Positions 17,249 through 32,236 of a stretch of 64,000 nt of DNA are shown piece by piece. The notes beneath the pieces are model-generated. The model worked only from the letters and a program-made list of their open reading frames with translations, was not told where the DNA came from and ran no database searches. The first letter of the stretch is position 1. Every line of letters starts with the position of its first letter. The position numbers and the translations under genes are program-made. Origin of the DNA: Verrucomicrobium spinosum DSM 4136 = JCM 18804 (lineage in GTDB: Bacteria > Verrucomicrobiota > Verrucomicrobiia > Verrucomicrobiales > Verrucomicrobiaceae); contig NZ_ABIZ01000001.1 in assembly GCF_000172155.1 (NCBI RefSeq), forward strand, positions 7,411,105 to 7,475,104, in the 5' to 3' direction.

Positions 17249-18577
17249 TCAAGCTTTCGGCTTGGCCAGCATTCGCAGGATTTCGGCCTGTGGAAGACTC
17301 TGAAACTTGCTCGCGATTTTTTCTGCCTCAGCTTCGCGATCTGGATTGGGGCTCTTGCCTTTCTCGTAGAGAGCATAGTGCTTTTTTGCGAATTCATTCA
17401 CAGCCTCATTGGCGGCGCGGCCCGCAAGAACCTCCGGGTCCTTCGCCAGCTTGGCCATTGTTTGAGTCGCAGTGGTCTTGATGAGAGGTTCACCAGGAAA
17501 CCCGGCAAGAACAGCCATCCAATCCGCCTTGTCCCATACACGGAGGCCCGGCGCCATGACCCTCAGCCAAATGGCGCGAGAATAGCGCAGCTGTTGCTCC
17601 CGCAGCGCAGGTGTGGGTTTGGTCACATCTTTCAGGGCCACACCAAGGACAAAGGAGAATCCGTCAGCGATCAACTCGGAACTGGCCCATGCATGCTTCC
17701 CTGGAAAGAAGGTGAGTTTGCTCCGCCCCGCATCAAGGTTGACCTGACTGCTGACGGCCTCATCCCGGTTGAAGCAGTTCGTGCCCATGAGACTGCAAAC
17801 CGGCAGGCCGGACCGCAGCTTCGCGATCCGGCACACTTTGCTGTTTTCTTCATCCGGATAGACGCCCATCCCAGATCCGCAGGCAAGTATTCCCGCTATC
17901 GAAGGATCCGTCTCTGCCAGCAGGTAGGCCATGCGCGAGCCGCCGGAAAAACCGGAGGCAAACGACAACTCCGCGAGCACCGGAAGGCGGCTCTTCACAT
18001 CTGCCACCATGGCCTGCACCGCCTCGTCCGACGGTCCAAAGCCATTCTTGGCTTCCTTCGAGGCGACGAGAATCACACCATGGCGCTCGGCTGTAGCCAC
18101 ATAGCGCTGCACGGTGCTTGCCTTGCCGCCACCCGGATCCATCAAATAGATGACCGGGTACTGGCGGGACCTGCGAAAGGTCTTGGGGAGATAGACAAAA
18201 TAAGACCACTCTCTGGACAGTTTGCACGGGATGGCCGCGCTGATTTTTCCCGGTTCCGCTGGAAAGTCGGCGATCACCTGTTCCCCGGCAGAAGCGGCCT
18301 CTTCAGGCTGGAGCAACTTCTCAATCGCGGCGTTTTTCGATTCATCAATGAACCGCCGGTCATTCTCACTCAAGAGTTGAGAAGACACCGTCAGACGTTT
18401 CCCAGTCCGCAGTTCCAACACCACGGCAGTTTCAGATGCCTCCAGCAATCGTGCCTCCATTTCACTCCCTGCCGTGCTCCTCCATAGACGCCAATCTTCC
18501 CCGTGGACGATCGAGTTACAGAGGCAAAGCGCGAGAAGTGAAAATTGAAAGAACGACGTGCGGGGCTTGCGAATCAT
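17249..18577 (-). CDS. Secreted SHD1-domain / alpha-beta hydrolase protein
   Basis: This encodes 442 residues from ATG 18577, chosen because a signal peptide begins there (FFQFSLLALCLCNSIVHG). Residues about 29-75 (DWRLWRSTAGSEMEARLLEA, then a VVLELRTGKRLTVSSQLLSE strand pattern) match the SLA1-homology SHD1 domain that many Verrucomicrobia and Planctomycetes put on secreted proteins. The rest resembles an alpha/beta-hydrolase of the PHB-depolymerase/feruloyl-esterase kind. It has YPVIYLMDPGGG, HGVILVASKEAKNG, and a nucleophile elbow SGFSGGSRMAYLL with Ser in G-F-S-G-G. The C-terminal 150 residues are helical and unassigned. Substrate unknown. It stands alone downstream of the phosphonate operon. 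Confidence 0.7.
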   Translation of the reverse strand: MIRKPRTSFFQFSLLALCLCNSIVHGEDWRLWRSTAGSEMEARLLEASETAVVLELRTGKRLTVSSQLLSENDRRFIDESKNAAIEKLLQPEEAASAGEQVIADFPAEPGKISAAIPCKLSREWSYFVYLPKTFRRSRQYPVIYLMDPGGGKASTVQRYVATAERHGVILVASKEAKNGFGPSDEAVQAMVADVKSRLPVLAELSFASGFSGGSRMAYLLAETDPSIAGILACGSGMGVYPDEENSKVCRIAKLRSGLPVCSLMGTNCFNRDEAVSSQVNLDAGRSKLTFFPGKHAWASSELIADGFSFVLGVALKDVTKPTPALREQQLRYSRAIWLRVMAPGLRVWDKADWMAVLAGFPGEPLIKTTATQTMAKLAKDPEVLAGRAANEAVNEFAKKHYALYEKGKSPNPDREAEAEKIASKFQSLPQAEILRMLAKPKA

Positions 18578-18724
18578 ACAGACACGATGGCATGACGCCG
18601 GCCTGCATCGTGGTACATGACTAGATACGATAAATTTTTGTCCGAAAGCGCGCCATCCACAGAACCGGTCGGAGATAGCTGCATGGCACAATCGCCGACA
18701 GTTGAGGCGGCAAAGGCTAAAGCC

Positions 18725-20143
18725 TCACCACGGCAGTGAAAAGGTCTTGACGGTTGTCATGAACTTCATCGCCTCGATCACACCCTCCTTGATCCCCAGC
18801 CCGCTGTCTTTCACGCCGCCAAACGGGGAAAGCTCGAGACGATAACCGGGAATTTCATTCACGTTCACCGTGCCGACTTTCAACGTCTTGACCGTTTTGA
18901 TCACGGCATCCATGGAGTTCGTGACGATGGCGCTGGAGAGCCCGTACGCGGTGGCATTGGAGAATTCCAGAGCGTCATCCAGATCCTTCACGGGAAAGAT
19001 GGGTGCCAGGGGGCCAAAGCACTCATTGGTAGCCAGGTAGGCCGACCGTGGCACATTCTCCAGGATGGTCGGCGCCATCTGGGCCCCCTGGCGGCTCCCG
19101 CCGAGGAGCACGGCCGCCCCCTTGCCCACAGCCTCCAGCACGGCCCCTTCCAATGCGATGGCCGCAGGCTCGTCGATAACGGTACCCACTACGGTTGACT
19201 CCTCCGCCGGATCCCCGTGAACGTAGGTCGCGGCCAACTTTACGAACCGGTCCGTAAACTCCTGAATCACCTTCTCATGCACCAGCAACCGGCGCACGGC
19301 GGTGCAGCGCTGGCCGCTGTTGCGGAAGCTGCCTTCACAGGCCAGCTTCGCGGCGAGATCGAGATCCGCATCCTCCAGGATGATCATCGGAGAGTGCCCC
19401 CCCAGTTCCAGGCAGAGCTTCTTGTACCCGGCCGTGGCGGCGATTTTCTTGCCAACAGATGCGCTGCCAGTGAAGGTGACCAGCTCCACGCGCTCATCTT
19501 GAATAAGAGGGGTGGTGATCTCTTCCAGCGAACCATGCACGACGCTGAGCATCCACCCCGGCAGCCCTGCCTCGTAGAGTACCTCGGCCAGACGGGCTGC
19601 CGTAAGCGGCGTCTTCTCCGAAGGTTTGAGGATGATGGGTGCTCCAGCGGCAATGGCTGGGGCCAGCTTGTGCGCCACCTGATTCAGGGGATGGTTGAAG
19701 GGAGTGATCGCGGCCACAAGAGACAGCGGTTCACGGTGCGTAAAGATCTTCCGCGCCTTGCCCGTGGGTGAAATGTCGCAGGAGAACGTCTGCCCATCAT
19801 CGCGGAGTGCCTCCATGGCGGCGAACGAGAAGACGTCACAGGCTCGGCCCACTTCATACCGCGTTTCCTTCAGGCAGAGACCCGCTTCACGGGTGATGAT
19901 CCGCGCAAGCTCCTCACGTCGGCCGTTGAGCAGATCATGGGTGCGGTTCAGGATCGTCGCCCGTTCATACCGGGTGAGTGGCCCATGCGGAGCCAGGTGC
20001 GAGGCAATGACTTCATCAAGCTGGCTGCGCGTGATGCGGGCCACGCTGCCGACGCGGCTGCCGTCCCAGGGGTTGAAGACTTCAAGACGGTCGGCCGACT
20101 GAGTGGCGACGCCCGCCAGATAGGATGGAAGTTCGAGATTCAA
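18725..20143 (-). CDS. phnY: Phosphonoacetaldehyde dehydrogenase
   Basis: This aldehyde dehydrogenase has 472 residues. LELGGHSP carries the general base Glu246, and GSFRNSGQRCTAVRR carries the catalytic Cys280. ITPFNHPLNQ, LKPSEKTPLTA and FTGSASVGKKIA are the NAD-binding blocks. The enzyme class oxidises phosphonoacetaldehyde to phosphonoacetate with NAD. I assign that substrate because the gene is last in an operon with a phosphonoacetate hydrolase and an HpnZ-like dehydrogenase; by sequence alone it is a glyceraldehyde-3-phosphate-dehydrogenase-type ALDH. The stop of the previous gene is about 20 bases upstream. No aminoethylphosphonate transaminase (PhnW) is present in the window, so the aldehyde must come from elsewhere or from the neighbouring dehydrogenase. 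Confidence 0.8.
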   Translation of the reverse strand: MNLELPSYLAGVATQSADRLEVFNPWDGSRVGSVARITRSQLDEVIASHLAPHGPLTRYERATILNRTHDLLNGRREELARIITREAGLCLKETRYEVGRACDVFSFAAMEALRDDGQTFSCDISPTGKARKIFTHREPLSLVAAITPFNHPLNQVAHKLAPAIAAGAPIILKPSEKTPLTAARLAEVLYEAGLPGWMLSVVHGSLEEITTPLIQDERVELVTFTGSASVGKKIAATAGYKKLCLELGGHSPMIILEDADLDLAAKLACEGSFRNSGQRCTAVRRLLVHEKVIQEFTDRFVKLAATYVHGDPAEESTVVGTVIDEPAAIALEGAVLEAVGKGAAVLLGGSRQGAQMAPTILENVPRSAYLATNECFGPLAPIFPVKDLDDALEFSNATAYGLSSAIVTNSMDAVIKTVKTLKVGTVNVNEIPGYRLELSPFGGVKDSGLGIKEGVIEAMKFMTTVKTFSLPW

Positions 20144-20164: not shown

Positions 20165-21286
20165 TCAAGGTTTCACGGCAACACGCTGCCAGACTCGGGA
20201 TCGGGTGAGGGAGACGGCCTCCTCCAGGGAGGCGAGCGGCAGGGCCGGGCTGACCAGCTTTTCGTAGGGCAGCTTGTGCAGGGTGGATTCGAGGAAACTG
20301 AGCCCCTTGGCCAGATGCAACGGCGAGTAGTTGTGCATGCCCCGGATGGTCAGGCACTTCCGGATGACGGCCTCACCCGTGAGCTGGAGCACAGTCTCCG
20401 GGTGAACCATGCCTGCCCACACATACATGCCGCCGGGGCGGAGCATCTGCACTCCCGGCGGGACCACGGATGCCGAGCCGGTCACCTCCACGACCAAGTC
20501 CACCCCACCGGGACATTCCACGTGCATGCGCTCCCGGGAGCGGCTCCAGTTTGCATCATCGCCGAGAACGGGAAGGCCGCCAAAGTCGGCGACGAGATCC
20601 AGCCGTTGGGGTTGGATGTCCGAGCAATAGACCTGCTGCACGCCGCGGTGACGCAGCCATGCACAGGCGTACAGACCAAGCAAGCCACCGCCCTGCACCC
20701 AGGCGGAGTCGCAGTGGGAGGGGAGGTCCGTAAGGGCACTGACCACGGTGGCCAGTGCACAGTTGGCAGGGGCGACGACCGCATCCGGCAGGGTGTCAGG
20801 CACCTCCAGCACAGCCGTGCCAGGACGCAGCATGATGTGGGTCGCATAGCAACCGTTGAGTCCGCTGCCATTGTTCAGTGCCGCATGACCATACTTGAAT
20901 AGATGATCACACTTCTGCGGCAGGTGCCAGGAGGCACAGGCCGGGCAATGGCCGCAGCTGTCTGCCAGGCTCCATGTCACCCGCGTGCCAGGAACGATGC
21001 CCTGACGTCCGCTTTCCACCACCACTCCCACGGCTTCATGCCCCAGGACGCACGGGGTGGGGGCAGAGCGACGACCGTCGATGGTATGAAGGTCAGAGCC
21101 GCAGATGGTGGCCAGCGAGATCTCCACCAGCACCTCCCCCTCGCCCACATGCTTGGGCAGCACCTGCTCGTGAAGCTCGAAACTGCGGGATGGACCATGA
21201 AACAACTGAACACGTGCCCGGGATGCGCAGCGAGACTTTTTTGATCCGACCGGGGCCGGAGAACGGGGAGGGAGGGTGACACTCAT
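20165..21286 (-). CDS. Zinc-dependent alcohol dehydrogenase, phosphonate-associated (HpnZ-like)
   Basis: This is a medium-chain dehydrogenase of 373 residues. Start ATG 21286 has GCAACCT upstream and is in frame; a longer frame to 21475 overlaps the MFS gene. The catalytic zinc site is in ATICGSDLHT and GHEAVGVV. The structural zinc Cys cluster is CGHCPACASWHLPQKC. The Rossmann part has VQGGGLLGLYACAW. The pattern matches the proposed phosphonate-catabolism alcohol dehydrogenase family found beside PhnY/PhnA-type genes. A plausible reaction is oxidation of 2-hydroxyethylphosphonate to phosphonoacetaldehyde, the substrate of the next gene; this is inference from gene order. It sits 25 bases behind the MFS gene and 21 before the aldehyde dehydrogenase. 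Confidence 0.75.
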   Translation of the reverse strand: MSVTLPPRSPAPVGSKKSRCASRARVQLFHGPSRSFELHEQVLPKHVGEGEVLVEISLATICGSDLHTIDGRRSAPTPCVLGHEAVGVVVESGRQGIVPGTRVTWSLADSCGHCPACASWHLPQKCDHLFKYGHAALNNGSGLNGCYATHIMLRPGTAVLEVPDTLPDAVVAPANCALATVVSALTDLPSHCDSAWVQGGGLLGLYACAWLRHRGVQQVYCSDIQPQRLDLVADFGGLPVLGDDANWSRSRERMHVECPGGVDLVVEVTGSASVVPPGVQMLRPGGMYVWAGMVHPETVLQLTGEAVIRKCLTIRGMHNYSPLHLAKGLSFLESTLHKLPYEKLVSPALPLASLEEAVSLTRSRVWQRVAVKP

Positions 21287-21311: not shown

Positions 21312-22595
21312 TCAGCGGCGGATAAGAAGGGCGAGCAGCGCGCTGCAAACGGCGAAGGCGGAGACGATGGGGAAGACGAGGGTGGTGTTTTCGACCCCGG
21401 GAACGGTGGCAAAGGGGTTGTGCTGGACCATCCAGCCGATGAAGGGTTCCCCCAGGCCAGCCATGGCATAGGCAAAACAGTTGATCATGCCCACCGCCGT
21501 GCCCGCGCGGGCGCGCCCCAGCAGGTCGGGAGCCAGTGCCCAGAAGGCCGCCTGGGGACCATAGGCAAAGAAGCCGCACAGGAACAGGACAGGCAGCCCC
21601 AACCAGTGCCCCTTGGGGAGCAGATACATGCCCATGGCGGTGACAGCGGCCAGACCCATGAAGGTGGCGATGATGCCGGAGCGGCGGGAGCCGCAGAACC
21701 GGTCAGAGATCCAGCCCGTCGCCACGGCCCCGAGAGCCATGCCCACCGGCAGGGCGATGCTGATCCATTTCCCTGCGGGGTTGCTCTTGAAATCGGGGCC
21801 CAGGAAATAGACAGGCACCCAGATGAGGAGCCCGTACCGAACGGAACTCTGGAATCCGATGGCAAGACCAGCGAGCATGAGCTTGCCATTGCCCAGGGCG
21901 GCGCGGTAGCGCTGCCAGGAGGTTTCACCGGTGACAGCGGGAGCGGGCGTGCCATCCTCCTTTTTTTCATCGGTAAAGTCCGCGAACCCCAGCTTCGCCG
22001 GGCGGTCCCGGGCGATAAGCCATACCACCACACCCCCCAGGAGCATGAGGATCACCGGCAGGCGGAAGATCCAGCGCCAGCTCAGGTGCAGCACATCCAG
22101 AATCAACAGGGACGTAATGTAGGACAGCACGGAGGAAAGACCGGCGGAAAGCAGGTAGAAACCGAAGGCCTTGCCACGCTCATGGGTGCCACACCAGTTG
22201 GCCACCAGACGGCTGCCCGGTGCCCAACCCATGCTTTGAGCGAGCCCGTTGGCACTCCAGGCGACGGCCAGCGACTTGAGTCCGGTGCCCAGGCTGGTAG
22301 CCCAGTTCAACGCGAACGAAAGCACCGTGCCCAGGCTCATCATCCGGCGTCCGCCGAAGCGGTCCCCCAGATTACCATTGATCGCCTGACCTACAGCATA
22401 GGCCCAGAGCATGCCAGCGCTCACCCAGCCCAGCGTCTGCTTGTCCAGACCGAGCTCTGCCTGAATGCCGGGAATGGCAAACCCGAAGGTCTGCCGCCCG
22501 GTGTAGTAGAAGAGATAGCAGAACATCACCGCACCGAGCACGCGCTTTTGTGCGCGCCGGAAGGCGGGGTCCTGATGAGTTACAGCGGCGGCCAT
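21312..22595 (-). CDS. MFS transporter of the organophosphate/phosphonate antiporter type
   Basis: This is a 427-residue membrane carrier with about 12 hydrophobic segments. FCYLFYYTGRQTFGFAIPGI in segment 1 matches the OPA family (GlpT/UhpT) start, where Tyr and Arg bind phosphate. GNLGDRFGGRRMM is the MFS A-like motif between segments 2 and 3, and NGLAQSMGWAPGSRLVANW is the OPA signature in segment 4. In this operon the cargo is most likely a phosphonate exchanged for phosphate, which is inferred. Its start lies 2 bases behind the stop of the phosphonoacetate hydrolase gene, so the two are translationally linked. Confidence 0.8.
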   Translation of the reverse strand: MAAAVTHQDPAFRRAQKRVLGAVMFCYLFYYTGRQTFGFAIPGIQAELGLDKQTLGWVSAGMLWAYAVGQAINGNLGDRFGGRRMMSLGTVLSFALNWATSLGTGLKSLAVAWSANGLAQSMGWAPGSRLVANWCGTHERGKAFGFYLLSAGLSSVLSYITSLLILDVLHLSWRWIFRLPVILMLLGGVVVWLIARDRPAKLGFADFTDEKKEDGTPAPAVTGETSWQRYRAALGNGKLMLAGLAIGFQSSVRYGLLIWVPVYFLGPDFKSNPAGKWISIALPVGMALGAVATGWISDRFCGSRRSGIIATFMGLAAVTAMGMYLLPKGHWLGLPVLFLCGFFAYGPQAAFWALAPDLLGRARAGTAVGMINCFAYAMAGLGEPFIGWMVQHNPFATVPGVENTTLVFPIVSAFAVCSALLALLIRR

Positions 22596-22597
22596 GG

Positions 22598-23839
22598 TCA
22601 GAGAGTTCCGTTGCAGGTGAATTCGAAAATGTCGAAGTTTCGCGGATCCGCCGTGGCCCGGGCCGCATATTCCGGCTTCAGAGGCTGGCTGAAGACGAAA
22701 GGCACCATTTCCTCATACCTGCCGCCATGGCTGCGCAGGCCGCCCGCCAGAGCTTTCAGGTCGTGGTAGGCTGGAGTGCGCCCCAACACCACGTCCCGGG
22801 CGCTGGCCACCACAAGGTCGCCCATGCGATCCTCCGGGAGTTCGAGGAGTTTTGCCCCCACTGCCCGGGTGTGGCATTCGGTCACGCCGCTGCGTCCCAG
22901 CAGCCAGGTCTGTACGGCCTGAACCTCCACGCTGGCCGGCACGTGCACCTGGGCAAAGGAGCCCAGGGCACCGTGATGCACCACATACGGGTCAGTGATG
23001 GGAAGGATCACGCGAAACCCGCCCCCGAACTGGGCGTCCAGTTCACTTTCCAGGTAGATCACGTTGGGAGTGCCATCGGCCTTTTGTTTGGCGTTCATGC
23101 CGTGGTCCGCTGTCACGCCCACGACTGCGCCCAAGGCCACCAGTCGGCCGAGTTCGGTATCGATTCCCGCGTAGAAGTCCAGCGCCTCCTGCTCCTCCGG
23201 CGCATGCTTGTGCTGCATGTAGTCCGTGGTGGAGAGGTAGAGGAAGTCCGCGATGCCGCGCTCCAGCAGGACCACACCTGCCTTCAGCACATATAGGCTG
23301 GCATCGCCGCTGTAGATCTCCGGGGTAGGGCCCACTATGGACTCCACTTCATCAATGCCGTGGCTGGCTTTGACCGCCTGCGCCGCTTTCTCTGCAGAGA
23401 AGGCGATGCCGCCTTCATTGATCAGCCCCGAGGCGAAGATGTCGCGCAGCTTTTCCTTGGCGGTGACCACCGCCACCTTGCGCCCCGCTTTCTGGACGGC
23501 GGGGAAGATCGTTTCCACCCGCAGGAACTTGGAGGAGTTCATCATCACCTCCTGGTCCTGGGCGGTGTCATAAAAGAAGTTTCCGCCAATCCCATGCACG
23601 CTGGGCGGAGTGCCAGTGACAATGCTGGTGTTGTTGACGTTGGTAAAGGTGGGCATGGCCGCGCGGGCAAACCCGCGCCAACCATTGAGGCTCATCCTGG
23701 CCAGGTTCGGCATGAGACCGCGCACGAGGGCGGCGTCGAAGTACTCGGTGGCGGAGCCATCCAGGCATACGACCACAACGGGACGCGATGGCAGGTTGTA
23801 GGCACGCTGGTTGACGGTGACGGAAGCAGTGGAATACAT
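22598..23839 (-). CDS. phnA: Phosphonoacetate hydrolase
   Basis: This 413-residue enzyme is in the alkaline-phosphatase superfamily. Metal and nucleophile blocks are VVVVCLDGSATEYFD (first Asp), PTFTNVNNTSIVTG (nucleophile Thr region), STTDYMQHKHAP (Asp and His), GVTADHGMN (Asp-His) and a late His in RSHGGRYEE. This set and the length fit phosphonoacetate hydrolase, which splits phosphonoacetate to acetate and phosphate and needs zinc. I chose ATG 23839 because homology-like sequence begins there. It is the second gene of the operon; the aldehyde dehydrogenase three genes on would supply its substrate. The assignment rests on the motif set plus context. Confidence 0.85.
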   Translation of the reverse strand: MYSTASVTVNQRAYNLPSRPVVVVCLDGSATEYFDAALVRGLMPNLARMSLNGWRGFARAAMPTFTNVNNTSIVTGTPPSVHGIGGNFFYDTAQDQEVMMNSSKFLRVETIFPAVQKAGRKVAVVTAKEKLRDIFASGLINEGGIAFSAEKAAQAVKASHGIDEVESIVGPTPEIYSGDASLYVLKAGVVLLERGIADFLYLSTTDYMQHKHAPEEQEALDFYAGIDTELGRLVALGAVVGVTADHGMNAKQKADGTPNVIYLESELDAQFGGGFRVILPITDPYVVHHGALGSFAQVHVPASVEVQAVQTWLLGRSGVTECHTRAVGAKLLELPEDRMGDLVVASARDVVLGRTPAYHDLKALAGGLRSHGGRYEEMVPFVFSQPLKPEYAARATADPRNFDIFEFTCNGTL

Positions 23840-23858: not shown

Positions 23859-25190
23859 TCAGGCGTGGGTGAGGTCGGCCAGGGTGAGATTGTAGGTAAA
23901 GACCCTTTCACCGTGGCGGTTGATGAGCTCGGCGGAGACCCGGGCCGGAGTGACCGTGCTGTCCACCTCCATCACCATGAAAACGTGCGGCTCCACGGCG
24001 CTGCGCACCAGATCCGGGTGATACGTGTTCAGCTTGGGGATGACGCTGCTGTGGATGGGGGAGGCAATGAACTGCACCAGGTCGTAGCCCACGGTTTTCT
24101 TGGACTTGTAGTGCAGCACCCGGCTGGCGTGGATGTCCCCGCCCACCAGCATGACCCCGGGGATCTTGTTCCGGGCGATGAATTCCTCCAGGGCCACGCG
24201 CTCATGCATGTACGTGCCCCAGTCGTCTTTCTCGCTGCTCTGCTTGTCATCCCAGATCACCCCGCAGGCCAGAATCTTGAAAGGTGCGGTGGAGGCCTTC
24301 AGTCCACGCTGCAGCCACTCCCACTGGGCGGCTCCCAGCAGGGAGGACTTTTGGGGGTCGGCATAGGATTTTTCTGTTTCCGAGAACCAACGGGTGTCGA
24401 GCAGGAACACTTCCACCGGGCCGTGGCGGAAGCTGGTGTAAATTCCTTGATCCTTCTCGCCAAAGGTCCACTGCGGCCGGTAGCGGCAGTACACCGTGCG
24501 GCTGTTTTCCTTGCCCTTGGCGCGACCGTCGCAGTCGTTCCCGGCAAAGTCGTGGTCATCCCACGTCCACCAGCAGGGGCGGGACTGCAGCAGGTTTTGG
24601 TATTCCGGCACTGCCGCGAAGGCACGGTGGCGCTTGGTCTGCACTTCGAGGGCGGTGCTGTCGATGTACGGGGTGTCACCGATAAGGATCACGGCATCCA
24701 CCTTCTCCTCCGCCATTCTATTCCAGACGGCCCGGCTGCCCGCGTCTTCCTTGGCGCAGGAACTGATGGCAAAGCGCACCTTGCCCGGTTTGTCAGGTTC
24801 GGGAGCCGTCTTGAAGCTCTGCTCCGGTGCGTTGGCCACTGGAGCGGAGTTGGACAGGACCCGATAGCGGTAGGCAGTGCCGGGGCGCAGTCCCTTCACC
24901 TGCCAGTGCAGGCAGAGATCCTGGTCCACCGTGGCCTGGGCAGATACCGTCACCGGCGCGCCTCCGCTGATGGGAGCCACCTCCAACACATACGCCCCGG
25001 GGGCGGCCGCCCTCATCCAGATCGCGCTCTTGTCCGTTTCTGTATGGCCCACGATGGGGCCGAGGAAGCCGCTATGGCTCCCAGAGGCGGCAGCGGCCTG
25101 ATCAAGAGCGGAGGCGGCGGTGCAGGCGAGGGTACCCGCGACGAACTGCCGGCGACTGACCCTGCCAGATGGAAGAGAAGGCGTTTTCAT
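23859..25190 (-). CDS. PhoD-like alkaline phosphatase with Tat signal
   Basis: This is an exported phosphoesterase of 443 residues. The N-terminus SRRQFVAGTLACTAASALDQ is a twin-arginine signal. An Ig-like N-terminal domain (about 45-150) is followed by the PhoD metallophosphatase domain. That domain has ISSCAKEDAG, LIGDTPYIDS, WWTWDDHDFAGNDCDG, FLLDTRWF and MLVGGDIHASRVLHY, which supply the usual Cys/Asp/Asn/His metal ligands. It is the first gene of the phosphonate operon, with about 20 bases to the next gene, so it probably contributes to external phosphorus gain. PhoD enzymes act on phosphomono- or diesters; a phosphonate-ester substrate would be a guess. Confidence 0.8.
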   Translation of the reverse strand: MKTPSLPSGRVSRRQFVAGTLACTAASALDQAAAASGSHSGFLGPIVGHTETDKSAIWMRAAAPGAYVLEVAPISGGAPVTVSAQATVDQDLCLHWQVKGLRPGTAYRYRVLSNSAPVANAPEQSFKTAPEPDKPGKVRFAISSCAKEDAGSRAVWNRMAEEKVDAVILIGDTPYIDSTALEVQTKRHRAFAAVPEYQNLLQSRPCWWTWDDHDFAGNDCDGRAKGKENSRTVYCRYRPQWTFGEKDQGIYTSFRHGPVEVFLLDTRWFSETEKSYADPQKSSLLGAAQWEWLQRGLKASTAPFKILACGVIWDDKQSSEKDDWGTYMHERVALEEFIARNKIPGVMLVGGDIHASRVLHYKSKKTVGYDLVQFIASPIHSSVIPKLNTYHPDLVRSAVEPHVFMVMEVDSTVTPARVSAELINRHGERVFTYNLTLADLTHA

Positions 25191-25264
25191 AGAAGGTGAC
25201 GATTGGCTAAAAAGACACTTTTGTTTCTAGAAAGCAACTTTTTACGCTTTTCTATCATCCGCTA

Positions 25265-25279
25265 TTTCTTTTGGGAAAC
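25265..25279. promoter_or_regulatory. Candidate operator before the phosphonate operon
   Basis: TTTCTTTTGGGAAAC lies about 75 bases ahead of the PhoD-like start. It differs by one base from the inverted pair of TTTCTTTTGAGAAA boxes on the other side of the XRE-cupin gene. A second palindrome, TTTCTAGAAA, lies at 25224-25233 closer to the start codon. Probable binding sites for the XRE-cupin regulator; the assignment is by repetition and position. Confidence 0.55.
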
Positions 25280-25303
25280 AAATCGGTCACCCAGCAGTGG
25301 GAC

Positions 25304-25365
25304 CTGAACCCGGTGCGGTTGAGGGCATAACGCCCCCTCTCCAGAACCGCACAGGGCGAGTTCAG
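25304..25365. other. Extended hairpin between regulator and phosphonate operon
   Basis: Three nested pairings are visible: CTGAAC (25304) with GTTCAG (25360-25365), TGCGGTT (25314) with AACCGCA (25345-25351), and GAGGG (25321) with CCCTC (25335-25339). The result is a roughly 62-base imperfect hairpin. It lies just after the stop of the regulator gene, in the path of any read-through into the operon. There is no T run. It could be a terminator/attenuator or an unrelated palindromic repeat. Confidence 0.5.
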
Positions 25366-25387
25366 GAGGTCGTCAGTGGGTTTGCAA

Positions 25388-25999
25388 CTACTTGCTATTG
25401 TGCCGGTTGGCAGCCGTCAGCGCTGCCGGATCCATACACATGACGCAGAGAACTCGCGCATCTTTGTCGGTCTCATTGAAGACGCGATGGTCCGTTTCAG
25501 CGTCGAAATAGAGGCTGTCTCCCGCATCCAGGCGGTAGAGATCATTGTCGTACTCGAAGGTCACAGTGCCCTCCAGAACAAGGAGAAACTCCTCCCCCTC
25601 GTGCTTCATGGCCTGCTGGCGCCCGCCCTTTGCAGGGACACGTACTTCGAGCGGGTCCATGGTCCGATCCGCACGCCGGTGGGCCAGGGACTCGTAATAG
25701 TTGTTCAACTTGTTGCCCGCCTCGGAGGGAATGTAGTTGCGCTCGATCGGCTTGCGCTCGCTGCGGCGCACCACGCTGATACGGGGCTTCTCATCAAGTC
25801 CTTCAAGAAGCTCTGAGAGCTTGATTCCCAGGGTTTCCGTGAGTTTTGCCAGCGTCGTCAGCGTCGGGGTAACACGGAAATTTTCCACCTTGGAGAGCAG
25901 CCCTTTGGCCAGACCTGAGGATTCCGAGACTTCTTCCAGCGTCAATCCGCGCTTGAGTCGGGCATTTCGGATTCGTTGGGCGAGTTCTACCAAATTCAT
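25388..25999 (-). CDS. XRE-family regulator with C-terminal cupin domain
   Basis: This is a 203-residue one-component regulator. Residues about 5-62 are an HTH of the XRE/Cro type (RIRNARLKRGLTLEEVSESS, LLSKVENFRVTPTLTTLAKL). Residues about 115-190 are a cupin (MKHEGEEFLLVLEGTVTFEY, YRLDAGDSLYFDAETDHRVFN) that may bind a small ligand or metal. I chose ATG 25999, directly before the HTH; an upstream extension to 26113 would overlap the candidate operators. It lies ahead of the phosphonate operon on the same strand and is divergent from the PEP-CTERM gene. Matching boxes stand on both sides, so it probably regulates itself, the operon and perhaps the divergent gene. The ligand is unknown; a phosphonate is a reasonable guess. 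Confidence 0.85.
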   Translation of the reverse strand: MNLVELAQRIRNARLKRGLTLEEVSESSGLAKGLLSKVENFRVTPTLTTLAKLTETLGIKLSELLEGLDEKPRISVVRRSERKPIERNYIPSEAGNKLNNYYESLAHRRADRTMDPLEVRVPAKGGRQQAMKHEGEEFLLVLEGTVTFEYDNDLYRLDAGDSLYFDAETDHRVFNETDKDARVLCVMCMDPAALTAANRHNSK

Positions 26000-26077
26000 A
26001 GGGCTGTGGTGGTTACACAGATTAGCACAGGAGCCGGTTGGAGCAAAGCGGGATGGTGTATGAAAAAGGGTCTGGAC

Positions 26078-26091
26078 TTTCTCAAAAGAAA
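26078..26091. promoter_or_regulatory. Candidate operator, left copy (TTTCTCAAAAGAAA)
   Basis: This is the exact reverse complement of the box at 26119-26132, with centres 41 bases apart, about four helical turns. It lies between the divergent starts of the XRE-cupin gene and the LamG/PEP-CTERM gene. The spacing suits two dimers on one DNA face. Confidence 0.6.
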
Positions 26092-26118
26092 CATTTTGTT
26101 TACACAAGAGCACTTTCC

Positions 26119-26132
26119 TTTCTTTTGAGAAA
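26119..26132. promoter_or_regulatory. Candidate operator, right copy (TTTCTTTTGAGAAA)
   Basis: This is the exact inverted mate of 26078-26091, about 20 bases ahead of the PEP-CTERM gene start, where binding would block initiation of that gene. It shares 13 of 14 bases with the box before the phosphonate operon. Confidence 0.6.
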
Positions 26133-26150
26133 CATTAGCCTCCGACCGCG

Positions 26151-27047
26151 ATGAAAAACCTGCTGTCCCTATTGTGCGCTACAGGAATGCTGGCTGGCCT
26201 GGTCCAGCCCGCTCTTGGCTCTGTCTCCCTGCTGGACGGACTGAGCTTTTATCTCGATTTCGAGGGCAGTGCTCCGGTGGACACTTCTGGCAAGAATGTG
26301 GTGGTGACCAACTCAGGCGTGACCTCCAACACCCTGACTGGGCACTATGGTGCGATCGCCGGGGTGGCCGGGAACGCCGGCTACTTCAACCGGTCGGAAA
26401 AGGACTGGCTCCAGATCGGACTGGGATATGGCAAGCTGGCGGCAGATCCGGCACCACAACCTCTGGCCTACAGCTTTACCATCAGCGCTTGGTACTACCT
26501 GCAGCCTGAAAGCGCCCCCACAGACCGGCTTTTCCTCTATGAGGGCGACGTGGACTATGATTTATCATTTGGCATCCGCGGGGATCTGGCCTCGTCGAAC
26601 GGGTCCTATGTGGGCACCGCCTACACCCCCGGGAAGACCAACTACGATGTATCAAATGCGGCCTACTATGACACGACGACCAACGAAGGGGCCTGGCAGC
26701 AGGTGCTGGAGACATTCTCGTCTGACGGCACTACGATCACGAAGAAGCTGTACCTCAACGGCGAACTGGTTGGCACCACCTCCACCATGACGGAGAGCTC
26801 GCTCTACTCTCCAGCGATCAATCTCGGCACTTATCGCGACAACAGCGGCCGCTACTGGGACGGCTTCATGGATGAGGTTGGCCTCTGGAACCGTGCGCTG
26901 ACCGATGTTGAAATATCCGATCTCTACGATCTGACTTACATCGACGGGCTTTCAGTGACCAGCCTGGCACCCGAGCCCTCAAGGGCAGTCTTGCTGCTGC
27001 TTGGCATCGTCGGGCTGCATCTTCGCCGATCCCGCCGCAGAGCCTGA
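26151..27047 (+). CDS. LamG-domain protein with PEP-CTERM sorting signal
   Basis: This is a 298-residue exported protein. Its signal peptide is residues 1-24 (LLSLLCATGMLAGLVQPALG). Residues about 30-255 form a LamG/concanavalin-like domain: LSFYLDFEGSAPVDTSG, SFTISAWYYLQPE, KKLYLNGELVGTTS, and YWDGFMDEVGLWNRALT. The last 26 residues are a PEP-CTERM tag: EPSRAVLLLLGIVGL followed by the basic tail RRSRRRA, expected to be processed by an exosortase. It stands about 50 bases ahead of the Verru_Chthon cassette, an arrangement known for that cassette, so it is probably its surface product. The upstream inverted boxes suggest control by the neighbouring XRE-cupin regulator. Its ligand is unknown. 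Confidence 0.85.
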   Translation: MKNLLSLLCATGMLAGLVQPALGSVSLLDGLSFYLDFEGSAPVDTSGKNVVVTNSGVTSNTLTGHYGAIAGVAGNAGYFNRSEKDWLQIGLGYGKLAADPAPQPLAYSFTISAWYYLQPESAPTDRLFLYEGDVDYDLSFGIRGDLASSNGSYVGTAYTPGKTNYDVSNAAYYDTTTNEGAWQQVLETFSSDGTTITKKLYLNGELVGTTSTMTESSLYSPAINLGTYRDNSGRYWDGFMDEVGLWNRALTDVEISDLYDLTYIDGLSVTSLAPEPSRAVLLLLGIVGLHLRRSRRRA

Positions 27048-27095
27048 GATCAGTCGCTCTGCGTCGAACTGTTGGGAAAACCATGCCCCCACGTC

Positions 27096-27782
27096 ATGAA
27101 AACGCCACCGACGTTCCCACGCACCCATGCTCGATTGGCCGGCTTCACGTTGATCGAACTGCTGCTCGTACTGGCCGTGATGACGATCCTGCTGACGCTG
27201 GTGGTGCCGGCGGTGCAGAGCACAGGGGCCGCGCGACTTACCGCAGGAGGCAAACAAGTGGCGGGACTCGTAGGGGCGGCCCGCCAGACTGCCATGTCCC
27301 ACAACACGCTGGCAGCCCTGGTGCTGCTTACCAGCCCAAACCAGCCCCAGGCTTACCGGGCCTTTGCCATCATCTACTACAAGGAAGGCCAGGGCTGGGT
27401 CCAAAAAGGCAACTGGGAAATGCTGCCGGAAGGCGTGGTGGTGGATGCGTCCAACACCGCTGATAGCACCTTCCTTCTTCACTCGCCCGAACCGTTCCCC
27501 TTCTTGAGCGAAGAGCAAGGGCAGGCGGCGCCTCCCGTGCGGTACCAGGGGGAGGGAGTTCAGGGCAACAACGCCATGGCCGCGCGCATCTTCACTGCCG
27601 GGGGCGGTTTGCTGGATGCCTCAGTGCCCTCCCAAATCCGCCTGGTGGAAGGGCATGTAGTGAGCGGCACCGTGCAATACGGCAGGCCCGGTGTTGACGG
27701 CAGGCCAGACAACTTTTTTGACATCGCCATCCTGGGGGCCACCGGCCTGCCAAAGATCAGTCGTCCACAACTCGAACCATGA
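27096..27782 (+). CDS. Verru_Chthon cassette protein D (prepilin-like)
   Basis: This is a pseudopilin-type protein of 228 residues. A short basic leader is followed by LAGFTLIELLLVLAVMTILL, the prepilin peptidase site (G|FTLIE) and hydrophobic helix, and then a GspH/FimT-like soluble domain. It resembles cassette protein D of the four-gene Verru_Chthon group. ATG 27096 puts the leader at a normal length; an upstream ATG at 27072 is less likely. Its stop overlaps the start of protein B (ATGA), so the genes are translated together. It is presumably assembled into a type II secretion/type IV pilus-like structure in the envelope; the work of these cassettes is not known. Confidence 0.85.
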   Translation: MKTPPTFPRTHARLAGFTLIELLLVLAVMTILLTLVVPAVQSTGAARLTAGGKQVAGLVGAARQTAMSHNTLAALVLLTSPNQPQAYRAFAIIYYKEGQGWVQKGNWEMLPEGVVVDASNTADSTFLLHSPEPFPFLSEEQGQAAPPVRYQGEGVQGNNAMAARIFTAGGGLLDASVPSQIRLVEGHVVSGTVQYGRPGVDGRPDNFFDIAILGATGLPKISRPQLEP

Positions 27783-28297
27783 AACCGATTAAGCGCCTTT
27801 CTTCCGGCTTCAGCCTGGCTGAGGTGGTCCTCGCCATAGGAATCTGCTCCGTGGCCCTCATGTCCCTCATCGGAGTGTTGGGAGTCTCCCTTTCTGCGGA
27901 GCGGGATTCTGCACGGGACACGGCCCTGACAGCCATGTCCTCACAGATCGTGGCCCGGCTTTCCAAGCAGCCTTTTGATGAGTTGCTCAAGAGCGTCGGG
28001 TCTGCCTCGGCCTCCGCAGAGGGAGACAGCGCCATGCCAGATGCCGGTCCTGTCTTCTACTTTGACTCCCAAGGCATGCTGCTCGCCGACGCCAGTGACC
28101 CAAATGAGTTGAGTGCCGCCTACCGATGCCTGGTCACACAACGCCCCTGCGAGGATACCAAAAATCCCACCACCGGCGCCTGCAACCTCGTCCGTGTGGA
28201 GATGGCCTGTTCCTGGCCCGTGACGAGCGGAAGCGGATCGACCAGCGCCCAGTCAACCGGCCAACAGCGTCTCTATGCAAGCATCGCCCGATACTGA
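27779..28297 (+). CDS. Verru_Chthon cassette protein B (prepilin-like)
   Basis: This is a 172-residue pseudopilin of the GspI/PilV kind: SSGFSLAEVVLAIGICSVALMS at residues 8-29 gives the processing site and helix. The remaining domain ends near GQQRLYASIARY. It matches cassette protein B in size and place. The start overlaps the stop of protein D by four bases, and its end overlaps the start of protein C by 23 bases, marking a single transcript. Confidence 0.85.
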   Translation: MKPIKRLSSGFSLAEVVLAIGICSVALMSLIGVLGVSLSAERDSARDTALTAMSSQIVARLSKQPFDELLKSVGSASASAEGDSAMPDAGPVFYFDSQGMLLADASDPNELSAAYRCLVTQRPCEDTKNPTTGACNLVRVEMACSWPVTSGSGSTSAQSTGQQRLYASIARY

Positions 28298-29231
28298 TCA
28301 TCGCGCCAGCAGCGCGAGGCGGGCTTTCACCCTGGTGGAGCTCCTGGTTTCCATCAGCGTGCTGGCCCTCATCGTAGCCCTGCTCGGCAGCTCGCTCACG
28401 GAGGTGAGCCGAGCCTGGACTCGCGGGGAGGGCAATGCGGAACGCCGCGGCAGCTCCCGGGCATTGGCAGATTTCCTGGCATCGGAGTTGCAAGGAGCCC
28501 TGCTTCCCGTGGAGGGCACAGACCCACGGGGGCAGGGCAATCTGCAATTCCTTGCCAGTCCTCCGGCGGCCCGTTTGCCTGCAGGGTGTGCCTGGTCCGA
28601 CTCGCTCTTCTGGCAGACACCCCAGGCCATGGAGACCACCTTTGGAGAGATCGCCGTGGTGGGTTATTTCATCAAATGGACAGACGGCCGCCCCATGCTA
28701 TGCCGTCTCTTCATTCCGCCGTCGGCACGCCAGGATGGCGTTGTTTCGAAGAACCCAGATTTCAGAGTCTATGACAGCAACCCCGATGCCTGGCTGGACG
28801 CCGGGATTGTATCGCGAAACGCGGCCCCGGATGACAAGGCCGGAGGCTATCGGGGGCTCTTTGCGGATCTTGTGCCCGGATTCTGGGTGCAGTGCTACGG
28901 GCTCGACGGTCAGGCACTGCCCCGCACCTATGACTCCCGCCAGGGCTATGACTGCCGCTTCCAGCCCGAAGGCAGGCTCAGCTACACAGAGAAGCGTTAC
29001 CTGCCCGCCACAGTGAGAGTGTCCCTGGCCCAGGTGGACTCAGGTCATGAGTTTGAACTGGCGCAGGCGGCCGACGAGGTGCGCGCCATCGCGGCCGATC
29101 CTGCCGTCAGGGACGCAGCCACCTTCCTCCAGCGCATTCAGTCAGCGGCGGAAAGTTCGCCCACGCTCGCGGCGCTGCTCCCGGGGCTGCGCACCTACAC
29201 CACGGAAATCCAGATGCTGCACTCCCGATGA
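28275..29231 (+). CDS. Verru_Chthon cassette protein C (prepilin-like)
   Basis: This is a 318-residue pseudopilin of the GspJ/PilW kind: ARRAFTLVELLVSISVLALI at residues 14-33 is the prepilin signal and helix. The soluble part has LADFLASELQGALLPVE and VAVVGYFIKW-like blocks typical of cassette protein C. The leader is 16 residues, slightly long but plausible. Overlaps with B before it and the A-like gene after it (ATGA at 29228) show tight coupling. It is probably a minor pilin that joins B and D at the tip of the fibre; this follows from GspH-I-J-K analogy. Confidence 0.85.
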   Translation: MQASPDTDHRASSARRAFTLVELLVSISVLALIVALLGSSLTEVSRAWTRGEGNAERRGSSRALADFLASELQGALLPVEGTDPRGQGNLQFLASPPAARLPAGCAWSDSLFWQTPQAMETTFGEIAVVGYFIKWTDGRPMLCRLFIPPSARQDGVVSKNPDFRVYDSNPDAWLDAGIVSRNAAPDDKAGGYRGLFADLVPGFWVQCYGLDGQALPRTYDSRQGYDCRFQPEGRLSYTEKRYLPATVRVSLAQVDSGHEFELAQAADEVRAIAADPAVRDAATFLQRIQSAAESSPTLAALLPGLRTYTTEIQMLHSR

Positions 29232-32200
29232 AGTCTTGCCTTCCCATCCGCGCTTCCCGCCCAAGGGGAGCTGCCCTCATCATCACACTGCTGATCATCG
29301 CCCTGCTCACGGTCATGGTGGTGGCGTTTCTGGACACCTCCCGCATTGAGCGCAGCGTGTCTGCCCATCACATGGAGCGATCACGGGCCGCCCTGTTGGC
29401 CAGGGAGGGCGTGAGTCGCACCGTGGCCCTCTTGCAGAAGGAGACGGTGGACGCGCCTCGTCAGGAGGGTGAAACCGAGGAGCAGTTTGCCCTTCGCAAG
29501 AGGAACTGGATCAGCCAGCCCGGTGCACTGCTGGTGCCGGATGCGCTCCCAGCCAGCCAGAAAGAGATTCGCCGGAAGGTGGAACTCTCCAGCGGCACGC
29601 CCCAGACAACTGCACCCACCTCGCCCGTCTTCGAGCCAGCCAACCTGAATGTTCAGATCCTATCAGACCCGAAGCCCGGATCACGGCTCATCACCGATAT
29701 CAAGGACCCTGCAACGGGCAAGCCGGTGCCATTGAAGCTGCGGTGGATCTATGTGCGGGAAGATGTAAAGGGAGGCGGCCTCTCCTATGACACAGCAGAG
29801 GAGCCGGACCTCCGTGACAGCGCCCGCCCCATCGTGGGGCGCTTCGCCTACTGGGTGGATGACGAGAGCAGCAAGATCAACTGCAACCTGGCCTGGAAGC
29901 GCACCCCGTCTGGCACTCCGCCCGCGCGTGCCAATCAACATCCGGCATCCCATCCGAGCCGCATCAATCTCACCAGTTTGATGCAACCGGATGGCGCGCG
30001 CCTCGACGAGGCGGCAGCAGATGCCCTGCATCAGGAGGCCGCCACCCGGCCGTTCAACTCTTTCACCGACGCCCGGAGAATCGAAGAAATGGCACCCGGC
30101 ATCTCCAGCCTGCTTTCGCACAACAAGTTTGAGCTGACCCACTACAATCAGGACCCTGACACCACCTTCTTTGGCGAGGAGCGGATCATGCTCACCACCA
30201 ATCCTGCACTGGTGCCCAAGAATGCCGACGGCACATATGCGCGGAAGTTTCTCGACATCCTCCGGGATGATCCCGAGACGCTGGGCCTCACCAAGGAGCA
30301 ATTGGATCCGGGAAACTACGATCACCTTGCCGCCGGCCAGCCTGACTATGCGGGTGCGGGCTCCAATGTGCTGCTGCCCAACAAGCTCGACGGCGTGGTC
30401 CGTGATCTGATGCGCTACATCAGCTCCCGCGAATGGCCGATATCCCCCGGGGTCAGTTTTAAGGACAAGTACTACCCCGGCGCTGCCAGTGACTCGGACG
30501 CGCAGCTTTCCCAACTGGCGGTGAACATCATCGACTATGTGCGCGCGAAGGAGTCTGCCATGGACGTGTTCGCGCCCATGCGTTTTGGCCCGAACCCGGC
30601 GGGTGAGCTTACCACCCATCCTTCCTATGGCTACGCTGGCTCCAATACCTTTCTGGGCATCAGTCGGGCACCTTACATCACTGAAGTGGGCATGTACATG
30701 AAGAATGACCCAGTGCCGGTTCCCAATCCGGTGCCCTCAGGCTGGCCACGGGATACCCAGGGCAAGCCGAAGAATCTTTACCCGTTGCACTATCGGTTTG
30801 AGGTCTTTCTCCCACCCAACTATGGCGTGGACGACGGCGTGGACCTGGTGCCAGACAAGGACGCAGAGCCCACGCCAAACTCGTCCTATGGCTGGCATTT
30901 CAGTAACCCTGACATCACTGCCTCAGACAGCACCTTCACGCAGTATCTCCCCGGACCCGGTGGCAGAGTGACCAGTACCAAGGGTCGCTCCATCACAGTC
31001 CGCATCTTCAAAGAAGACATTGAAGGCGGGCAGACGAAGCTCATGCCTGGCCAGCGGCTGGTGGTGAACAAGGTGCTCTACCGCGATGCCCCATGGTCCG
31101 TCCGCAAGTATTGCCCCTGGCGGTTGGCCATGTATCTCTGGAAGTCGGACGCGGAAGGGTTCATGACTGGGCCTCATGCACCGCGCATCGTCATCACTCC
31201 GGAGCATGGCACCATCCGCTGCGACATGGGCGATCCTGGCACCACCACCCCGGCCAACATGGTCTCCCATGAGTGTGATGATCCCCGGGCCAGCGTGCAT
31301 ACCAGCGACTGGAAACCGAACAAGAACAACGGCAACACCTTCGGCGCCCCGAACTCCCGATCCACGGTGGGGGCGAATCCACTGAACGTGCGCCCGCAAC
31401 AGGACGTGGACGCCGGTGGGAAGATCTCAGATGCCAGCTTCTACATGCCGCCTCCAAAGGGGCGAGGAACCAACGGACCAGATGGTGACAACGGCCGCCT
31501 CGGCTCGGTGGCCGAGCTGGGCTATGTGCACACGGGCAACAACGCGGCCACGGGCAGCATCCCCTGGCGCACCCTGCGTCTTCAGGTGAACAACTACACG
31601 ACTGCCAATCCTTCCCTGCCGGACTGGGCGCTTCTGGATCTGTTCAGCGTGGCCAACACCGGCACCACCTCCAATGGCGGACTCTACAAGCCACATGGCA
31701 CCTCCGTGGGAGGCCGCGTGAATGTGAACTCCCGCACGCTGCCGTTTGAGAACCTCACCCGGTCCCAGGCCCTGGTGGCGCTGCTCACCGGGGCCAATGG
31801 CATGACCTTGGAAAAGGCGACGGAGATCGCGGGCAACATTTACCGGCGTGAACTCTCCCCGCTGAACAACCGGCTCGGCAAAAGCTTCGGCAAAAGCTAT
31901 GGCTTCCCGTGGAAGGCGGCACCCGTGGCCACGGACGCGAATGCCTATGACATCCCGTGGGAGATCTGCGAGGTGAAGGGCGTGGCCGATGAAGGCGAGG
32001 CCAGTGAGAGTCTTGTGCGCGAGATTGGCAGCCTCATCACCTCCCGTGGAGGTGTGTTCACCGTCTATACCGTGGGCCAGGCGATGAAACAAACCTCCAG
32101 CGGCCAACTGACGGTCACCGCAGAACAGCGTCAGCAGGTCATGCTGGAGCGTTACGTCACGAATCGAGGCACCGCCAATGCGGCCGATGATGAAGTGCGC

Positions 32201-32236
32201 TTTCGCGTGGTGTACTCACGCAACCTGACGCCATAA
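29228..32236 (+). CDS. Verru_Chthon cassette protein A-like (GspK/PilX-like large protein)
   Basis: This is a 1002-residue protein closing the forward cassette. The N-terminus RGAALIITLLIIALLTVMVVAF is a prepilin-like membrane helix without the usual FTLIE Glu site, as in PilX/GspK. RFAYWVDDESSKINCNLAW at about 195-215 is the block that defines protein A relatives. Late in the protein, GGRVNVNSRTLPFENLTRSQ and YTVGQAMKQ repeat features of the second protein A at 32475-36521. It is shorter than the usual protein A (here 1349-1367 residues). The start overlaps the stop of protein C by ATGA. Confidence 0.8.
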   Translation: MKSCLPIRASRPRGAALIITLLIIALLTVMVVAFLDTSRIERSVSAHHMERSRAALLAREGVSRTVALLQKETVDAPRQEGETEEQFALRKRNWISQPGALLVPDALPASQKEIRRKVELSSGTPQTTAPTSPVFEPANLNVQILSDPKPGSRLITDIKDPATGKPVPLKLRWIYVREDVKGGGLSYDTAEEPDLRDSARPIVGRFAYWVDDESSKINCNLAWKRTPSGTPPARANQHPASHPSRINLTSLMQPDGARLDEAAADALHQEAATRPFNSFTDARRIEEMAPGISSLLSHNKFELTHYNQDPDTTFFGEERIMLTTNPALVPKNADGTYARKFLDILRDDPETLGLTKEQLDPGNYDHLAAGQPDYAGAGSNVLLPNKLDGVVRDLMRYISSREWPISPGVSFKDKYYPGAASDSDAQLSQLAVNIIDYVRAKESAMDVFAPMRFGPNPAGELTTHPSYGYAGSNTFLGISRAPYITEVGMYMKNDPVPVPNPVPSGWPRDTQGKPKNLYPLHYRFEVFLPPNYGVDDGVDLVPDKDAEPTPNSSYGWHFSNPDITASDSTFTQYLPGPGGRVTSTKGRSITVRIFKEDIEGGQTKLMPGQRLVVNKVLYRDAPWSVRKYCPWRLAMYLWKSDAEGFMTGPHAPRIVITPEHGTIRCDMGDPGTTTPANMVSHECDDPRASVHTSDWKPNKNNGNTFGAPNSRSTVGANPLNVRPQQDVDAGGKISDASFYMPPPKGRGTNGPDGDNGRLGSVAELGYVHTGNNAATGSIPWRTLRLQVNNYTTANPSLPDWALLDLFSVANTGTTSNGGLYKPHGTSVGGRVNVNSRTLPFENLTRSQALVALLTGANGMTLEKATEIAGNIYRRELSPLNNRLGKSFGKSYGFPWKAAPVATDANAYDIPWEICEVKGVADEGEASESLVREIGSLITSRGGVFTVYTVGQAMKQTSSGQLTVTAEQRQQVMLERYVTNRGTANAADDEVRFRVVYSRNLTP

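Follow-up and report, generated by a model that had tools for sequence, protein, structure and literature searches.

A putative XRE-cupin regulon joining phosphonate use and a LamG surface protein in Verrucomicrobium spinosum and related bacteria

The window, i.e., the whole stretch of 64,000 nucleotides of Verrucomicrobium spinosum DNA analysed here, contains a regulator gene with phosphonate genes on one side and a surface protein gene on the other. The regulator (25388-25999, minus strand, 203 aa) has an N-terminal XRE helix-turn-helix domain and a C-terminal cupin domain, with HTH_3 (41.8 bits) and Cupin_2 (66.1 bits) both above the Pfam cut-offs, and is thus an XRE-cupin protein. Its start codon is the ATG at 25999, so the intergenic region shared with the surface protein gene is 26000-26150. 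The first Pfam and NCBIfam runs were made with ORFs extended to GTG or TTG codons, in which the regulator had 241 aa, the alcohol dehydrogenase described below 436 aa and PhnA 437 aa. Against PuuR (NCBIfam NF007408) the regulator scores 65.8 bits, below the cut-off of 211. The motif SKVENFR and the residues H133, E137 and H171 are invariant across 28 aligned regulator sequences. The predicted model of the protein has a mean pLDDT of 79.1 and a pTM of 0.53; given this pTM, its domain arrangement is uncertain.

Downstream of the regulator and in the same direction lies a tight operon of five genes on the minus strand. The first encodes a PhoD-family phosphatase (23859-25190), which matches PF09423 above the cut-off (112 bits) and reaches 53.8 bits against the 1000 of the NCBIfam equivalog NF058638. 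It has a Tat-type SRRQF signal, recognized by eye, and weak PDB matches (9uya, 2yeq). The second gene, with its start set at an internal Met, encodes the phosphonoacetate hydrolase PhnA (22598-23839; TIGR02335, 488.9 bits against a cut-off of 407.55; PDB 3szy, E 3.4e-111). It is followed by an MFS transporter of the organophosphate type (21312-22595, PgtP/GlpT-like), which is above the cut-off for PF07690 and has TIGR00881 as its best NCBIfam match, below the cut-off of that family. The last two genes encode a zinc alcohol dehydrogenase (ADH; 20165-21286), a candidate hydroxyethylphosphonate dehydrogenase, and a PhnY-type phosphonoacetaldehyde dehydrogenase (18725-20143). Both score slightly below the cut-offs of families that are their best matches by a wide margin, namely TIGR03366 for the former (312.7 against 328.1 bits) and TIGR03250 for the latter (620.3 against 635.65 bits). 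An ORF that lies 33 bp past phnY (17249-18691, minus strand) weakly matches an extracellular PHA depolymerase domain, and no relative of it is clustered in the other regulator loci. PhnW was found above the cut-off in six of the 25 regulator-bearing genomes searched, and neither in the genome of the window nor in its two sister strains, BvORR034 and BvORR106. A use of aminoethylphosphonate via PhnW is therefore unlikely here.

On the other side, divergent from the regulator, a gene on the plus strand (26151-27047) encodes a 298-aa surface protein with a LamG domain (Laminin_G_3, PF13385) and a PEP-CTERM sorting tail. The tail scores 22.1 bits against TIGR02595 (cut-off 16), and the genome has four matches to exosortase (PF09721) above the cut-off, two of them partial, i.e., both parts of a PEP-CTERM system are present. 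Directly after the LamG gene follow a gene for a pilin-like Verru_Chthon D protein (27072-27782, plus strand; TIGR02596, 47.3 bits, below the cut-off of 70), which was found in both sister strains, and overlapping genes for the B, C and A proteins (27779-32236, plus strand). In a full Verru_Chthon cassette all four proteins would exceed their cut-offs; here only B does (TIGR02598, 53.3 against 51.4 bits), while C (TIGR02599) has 38.4 against 256.5 bits and A (TIGR02600) 236.6 against 332.3 bits. A second, canonical Verru_Chthon A protein (32475-36578, minus strand, 1435 bits) is encoded convergently to this divergent cassette.

Two pairs of boxes lie at the locus. Box A1 (TTTCTCAAAAGAAA, 26078-26091, plus strand) and box A2 (26119-26132, minus strand) are located between the regulator and the LamG gene and are complementary at 14 of 14 positions across a gap of 27 nt, 41 bp from start to start; A2 ends 18 bp upstream of the LamG start codon. 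This exact inverted pair was pointed out in an earlier note on this DNA, and we found it as described. The note had also placed a 13/14 match at 25265-25279 and the sequence TTTCTAGAAA upstream of the phosphonate operon. The match exists and ends at 25278, and TTTCTAGAAA is found at 25224-25233 as a part of a full box, B1 (TTTCTAGAAAGCAA, 25224-25237, plus strand). The match itself is box B2 (TTTCTTTTGGGAAA, 25265-25278, minus strand, reverse complement TTTCCCAAAAGAAA). B1 and B2 thus form a second complete inverted pair, which the note had missed, with the same 27-nt gap and the same 41 bp from start to start. When a 24-kb stretch of the window was searched for GTTKC-N6-GMAAC with a score of at least 8/10 and a spacing of 36-46 bp, exactly two pairs were obtained, A1/A2 and B1/B2, each spaced at exactly 41. 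The boxes are real.

The arms of A1/A2 could pair as RNA (14 bp with a 27-nt loop), and the pair might be read as a hairpin, i.e., a terminator or an attenuator, and no operator at all. We give this explanation hardly any credit, as each arm is itself near-palindromic, the boxes in other genomes are often single, and the promoter and terminator scans found no promoter and no terminator-like site. Another inverted repeat (25309-25356, 12 nt with a 24-nt loop) lies directly past the stop codon of the regulator gene; it is poorly conserved in the sister strains and is possibly a terminator.

The 14-mer is rare. Its exact sequence occurs twice in the 8,220,857 bases of the genome, as A1 and A2, and four matches have one mismatch, one of which is B2. 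Two of the other three (L003 and L004; L and G numbers denote loci and genomes) are within long ORFs. The third (L005, with a low score of 13.6 bits) is in a 141-aa ORF, 190 bp upstream of a gene for a 415-aa protein; this ORF may be spurious and the match thus intergenic. At up to two mismatches there are 35 matches in the genome against 21 for the pattern read backward, so only close matches stand out. A looser pattern, built from six boxes of the distant genome G143, matches three places in the genome of the window, all of them at the locus, with no control matches.

The boxes are also conserved in the sister strains. B1, B2 and A2 are identical in both, and A1 is identical in BvORR106 and has one change in BvORR034. 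On the phosphonate side the block from box to box is nearly constant while its flanks drift, most clearly in BvORR106. On the LamG side the region is conserved throughout, which makes the conservation of the boxes there less informative.

We searched 288 genomes of the order for the regulator. Matches at E of at most 1e-20 were found in 32 genomes, and 29 of the 288, the genome of the window included, have a match with at least 49% identity. From the other genomes, 28 loci of at most 20 kb each were taken around the regulator. At least one of PhoD, PhnA, MFS, ADH and PhnY was detected by tblastn in 23 of these loci, and PhnA or PhnY in 13. The five loci where this search gave none of the five are L043, L045 (where the contig ends beside the gene), L049, L055 and L066. 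A profile scan of one genome per species across 84,980 species gave 109 relatives of the regulator. The best 80 of the 109 loci, which were kept, come mainly from Verrucomicrobia and Planctomycetes, with Lentisphaerae and Phycisphaerae. Among 64 loci of this wide scan, 14 duplicate the first set, as judged by eye from contig name, length and position, which leaves 50 others. With a minimum of 35% identity, PhoD, PhnA, MFS, ADH, PhnY or DUF5690 was found in 33 of the 50, and PhnA or PhnY in 11. A looser count of 37/50 (13/50 for PhnA or PhnY) includes weak dehydrogenase matches and PhoD-LamG queries that could match LamG alone. The search for phosphonate-type genes was negative in the remaining 17 loci; six of the 17 are on contigs shorter than 8 kb. 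In 16 more distant XRE-cupin loci (Burkholderia, delta-proteobacterial and other bins) no phosphonate-type gene was found, even at E 1e-6. Two loci contain a second XRE-cupin regulator copy close to the first (L061, 7255-7836; L079, 9405-9944), so paralogues exist. A cluster with genes for di-haem cytochrome c peroxidases (CCP_MauG) is present in four loci; in two of them these genes are directly upstream of PhoD-LamG (L050, 2146-3453; L057, 6535-7773).

Box-like sites in the other Verrucomicrobiales loci are concentrated upstream of regulator, PhoD, phosphonate and LamG genes. In 26 other loci, seeds made from the boxes of the window gave, at up to two mismatches, 19 matches within the 34.0 kb that precede family genes, against 10 in the remaining 446.7 kb; for 30 scrambled seed sets the mean upstream of family genes was 0.4 and the maximum 2. 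We then built a 20-column matrix from 22 sites of the window and the 26 loci, with 19.5 bits as the threshold for strong sites, and applied it to the 50 other loci. It gave nine strong sites. Eight of them are upstream of regulator, LamG, PhoD-LamG or ADH genes, although the upstream stretches counted make up 7.2% of the bases, and the ninth is upstream of a pilin-like ORF in L091. The controls gave four sites in the reversed sequence and a mean of 0.36 (maximum 3) for permuted matrices.

A second operator form, GTTGACT-N3-AGTCAAC, was found mostly in planctomycete loci. At up to three mismatches it has 59 matches, 25 of them upstream of family genes, against 0 to 2 upstream for eight other gap lengths and 1 to 3 for three scrambled forms. 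The form was derived from weak matrix matches in the same loci, and these comparisons of gaps and scrambles are its only controls. Where there is a second site, it tends to be found 38-41 or about 20 bp from the first, in small numbers outside the genus; the exact spacing of 41 bp is secure in the genus only, and elsewhere the boxes are often single.

A palindrome as simple as TTTC-N6-GAAA could belong to another regulator that is widespread in these bacteria and beside which the XRE-cupin gene merely happens to lie. Many regulator-free genomes do have matches to the pattern, often in numbers near the control counts. An exception is G106, with 13 pattern matches against 0 control matches and no regulator match at E 1e-20; its sites possibly belong to another regulator with a similar site. 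Against this explanation, the sites track the XRE-cupin loci across families, and the second operator form, with its gap of 3, tracks the regulator's mostly planctomycete relatives. We therefore regard it as very improbable and take the boxes to be putative operators of the XRE-cupin protein. Genome-wide box counts do not show whether boxes and regulator occur together, since 190 of the 288 genomes, regulator-free ones among them, match the loose pattern; we discarded this test.

According to the earlier note, one regulator may control phosphonate use, the surface protein and its secretion cassette. For the surface protein a difficulty is that A1 and A2 lie between two divergent genes, so their position alone cannot assign them. 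They might serve autoregulation of the regulator only, with the LamG gene as a bystander on the other side, and LamG is a widespread domain, with 30 PF13385 matches in the genome of the window. Evidence from outside the window makes this improbable. L061 (genome G248) repeats the layout of the window, with a regulator and a PEP-CTERM LamG gene in divergent orientation and a box between them. Ten boxes are upstream of LamG genes only, in L051, L052, L054, L062 (four boxes), L069, L074 and L076; four of the ten were training sites of the matrix, and the one in L054 is inside a called ORF on the opposite strand. In L062, L069, L074, L076 and other loci the LamG genes behind the boxes do not adjoin the regulator. 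A LamG gene is close to the regulator in 11 of the 29 loci, where the genome-wide density of LamG predicts 3.7 (P 4e-4); when the two sister strains are excluded, the figures are 9 of 27 and 3.6 (P 0.006). The observed numbers are from tblastn and the expected ones from PF13385 totals. PhoD-LamG fusions were confirmed with Pfam in all three loci tested, and a PEP-CTERM tail was found in three of four LamG proteins of relatives.

In L062 of genome G143, the regulator of which is about 50% identical, boxes are upstream of four LamG genes, a LamG-PhoD-LamG fusion, an ADH-PhnA-PhnY operon and the regulator. In all of G143 the pattern matches at nine places: six in L062, all used for the design of the pattern, and three new ones elsewhere. 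The first new site is 55 bp upstream of a gene for an exported PhoD that stands alone, with a divergent NHL-repeat gene at a greater distance, the second is 37 bp upstream of an exported calcineurin-like phosphoesterase, and the third is within an ORF. In the other four genomes scanned with this pattern, the places matched are mostly at the locus (G000, 3/3; G021, 2/2; G136, 3/4; G248, 1/2). Glycan enzymes occur as well: in L055 a box is 42 bp upstream of a GH123 enzyme with a sugar-binding domain, and in L047 a GH5 enzyme follows PhoD. The boxes at LamG genes away from the regulator and the PhoD-LamG fusions thus make a link between phosphonate use and LamG surface proteins well supported at the level of sequence comparison, and this part of the claim is upheld.

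The cassette is another matter. BvORR106 retains it whole. The locus of BvORR034 (16.7 kb) has LamG and D only, followed by an Rhs gene, and its contig ends about 4 kb further on. This Rhs-core gene (L039, 13528-16254) stands in place of the B, C and A genes, which makes the membership of the cassette in the regulon doubtful. As its proteins are divergent too, the pilin-like cassette is the weakest part of the proposed regulon, and we would not assign it to the regulon at present.

Around the observed boxes, with their spacing and conservation, and the co-location, families and fusions of the genes, we infer a model that covers binding, repression, ligand, substrate and the order of steps. We consider it rather probable that a local XRE-cupin repressor, relieved by phosphonate, controls the recovery of phosphonate esters from polysaccharide. 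The protein would be a local, autoregulated repressor that binds as one dimer per imperfect palindrome of the GTTTC-N6-GAAAC class; the palindromes at its own gene and at neighbouring genes, as predicted operators, agree with the local mode of action of XRE-cupins. Each of two control regions in Verrucomicrobium would be shut by a pair of dimers set 41 bp, or about four helical turns, from each other; one region lies upstream of phoD-phnA-MFS-ADH-phnY, the other between the LamG gene and the divergent regulator. On binding a phosphonate or an intermediate of the pathway, the cupin domain would let the DNA go. The LamG surface protein would hold the glycan, the exported PhoD would cleave the phosphonate ester, and the MFS carrier would take up the freed 2-hydroxyethylphosphonate. 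ADH would oxidize this compound to phosphonoacetaldehyde, PhnY would convert the latter to phosphonoacetate, and PhnA would split it into acetate and phosphate.

HppE and HEPD, near the top of a fold search in which 1y9q was the best Foldseek match of the regulator model, are phosphonate-binding HTH-cupins. We rejected phosphonate sensing inferred from this homology, since seven control XRE-cupins without phosphonate neighbours match HppE better (E 4e-10) than the regulator family of the window does (E 6e-8). The likeness therefore looks generic to XRE-cupins, and HppE and HEPD serve as an architectural precedent only. VIA-align gave mainly HTH-only and cupin-only chains, with no HppE among the 50 matches listed, which has no bearing either way.

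The sign and the trigger of the regulation could be different. The regulator might activate transcription, or act together with a general (Pho-type) response to phosphate starvation, and not be a substrate-specific repressor: the gene products liberate phosphate, and boxes about 30-90 bp upstream of start codons would suit an activator, too. In L052 and L075 and, less strongly, in L054, sites abut the start codon of the regulator gene, which suits repression, and the XRE-cupins described in Pseudomonas are local inhibitors with palindromic sites beside their own genes, according to the available text of PMC7901475. We thus consider activation or Pho-type control unlikely, though less so than the bystander role of LamG, and retain the repressor model. 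Judging from the genes present and from the local type of XRE-cupin, the inducer would be a specific substrate. As to the nature of this substrate, 2-hydroxyethylphosphonate (HEP) and methylphosphonate are described as polysaccharide esters in marine organic matter (in the accessible parts of PMC5649143 and PMC8931226), and PhoD-type enzymes are postulated to cleave phosphonate esters off polysaccharide (likewise PMC5649143). Such a cleavage agrees with a PhoD that is secreted and carries LamG modules. Several results weigh against the model. No phosphonate-type gene was found in 5/28 and 17/50 regulator loci, PhnA or PhnY are present in only 13/28 and 11/50, LamG is close to the regulator in only 11/29, and the reversed sequence gave four strong sites, compared with nine real ones. 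The scores of ADH and PhnY below their cut-offs, the generic likeness to HppE and HEPD, and the restriction of the secure 41-bp spacing to the genus count against it as well.

More tentatively, and with somewhat less than even confidence, we suggest a phosphonoglycan-use system across Verrucomicrobia and Planctomycetes. It would consist of one XRE-cupin regulator, LamG lectins, exported PhoD or PhoD-LamG, glycan hydrolases in some lineages (GH123, GH5), a carrier, and a hydroxyethylphosphonate dehydrogenase that leads to PhnY and PhnA. If it exists, it would supply the missing steps of ester cleavage and uptake in the turnover of phosphonate-bearing dissolved polysaccharide. The putative regulon joining PhoD, LamG and a PhnW-free phosphonate pathway provides concrete candidate genes, suggests a hydroxyethylphosphonate dehydrogenase, and assigns a testable role to one LamG/PEP-CTERM protein out of the many in Verrucomicrobia. 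The two operator forms may be used as a computable marker of the regulon to find more genes. The available text of PMC12366243 weighs a hydroxyethylphosphonate dehydrogenase activity for another enzyme and deems it less likely.

The components are of known kinds. In the accessible parts of the open-licence literature searched, we found no description of their combination, in which a single regulator would govern phosphonate breakdown, PhoD and LamG/PEP-CTERM surface proteins in Verrucomicrobia and Planctomycetes through two forms of operator, and none of control of PEP-CTERM or Verru_Chthon genes by a phosphonate regulator. As far as the available text of PMC5615132 goes, phosphonoacetate hydrolase is already known in the phylum, from phnA of freshwater Verrucomicrobia, and phosphonate regulation, PEP-CTERM and LamG are not mentioned there. 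PhoD alkaline phosphatases share with the PhoD of the window the PF09423 domain and an export signal (seen by eye here), but the latter is below the equivalog cut-off, and the PhoD of relatives is fused to LamG. The PEP-CTERM/exosortase and Verru_Chthon systems have the same sorting tail, exosortases and pilin-like D-B-C-A genes behind, whereas the set in the window is divergent and is incomplete in one sister strain.

The Proteobacterial PhnW-PhnY-PhnA pathway, as described in the accessible text of PMC8154272 and PMC12366243, likewise contains PhnY and PhnA and ends in acetate and phosphate. Here, in contrast, there is no PhnW above the cut-off, ADH possibly feeds in hydroxyethylphosphonate, and a PhoD is exported. 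The part of PMC9381506 available names LysR-type regulators, whereas an XRE-cupin protein is found in Verrucomicrobium. The closest parallel is provided by ErfA, PsdR and PauR of Pseudomonas. According to the available text of PMC7901475, they combine a helix-turn-helix with a cupin domain, have palindromic sites, bind at their own genes and control adjacent metabolic genes, and ErfA additionally controls the unrelated exlBA operon. In comparison with these proteins, phosphonate being absent from that text, the Verrucomicrobium boxes are paired and the predicted regulon includes a LamG/PEP-CTERM surface protein gene.
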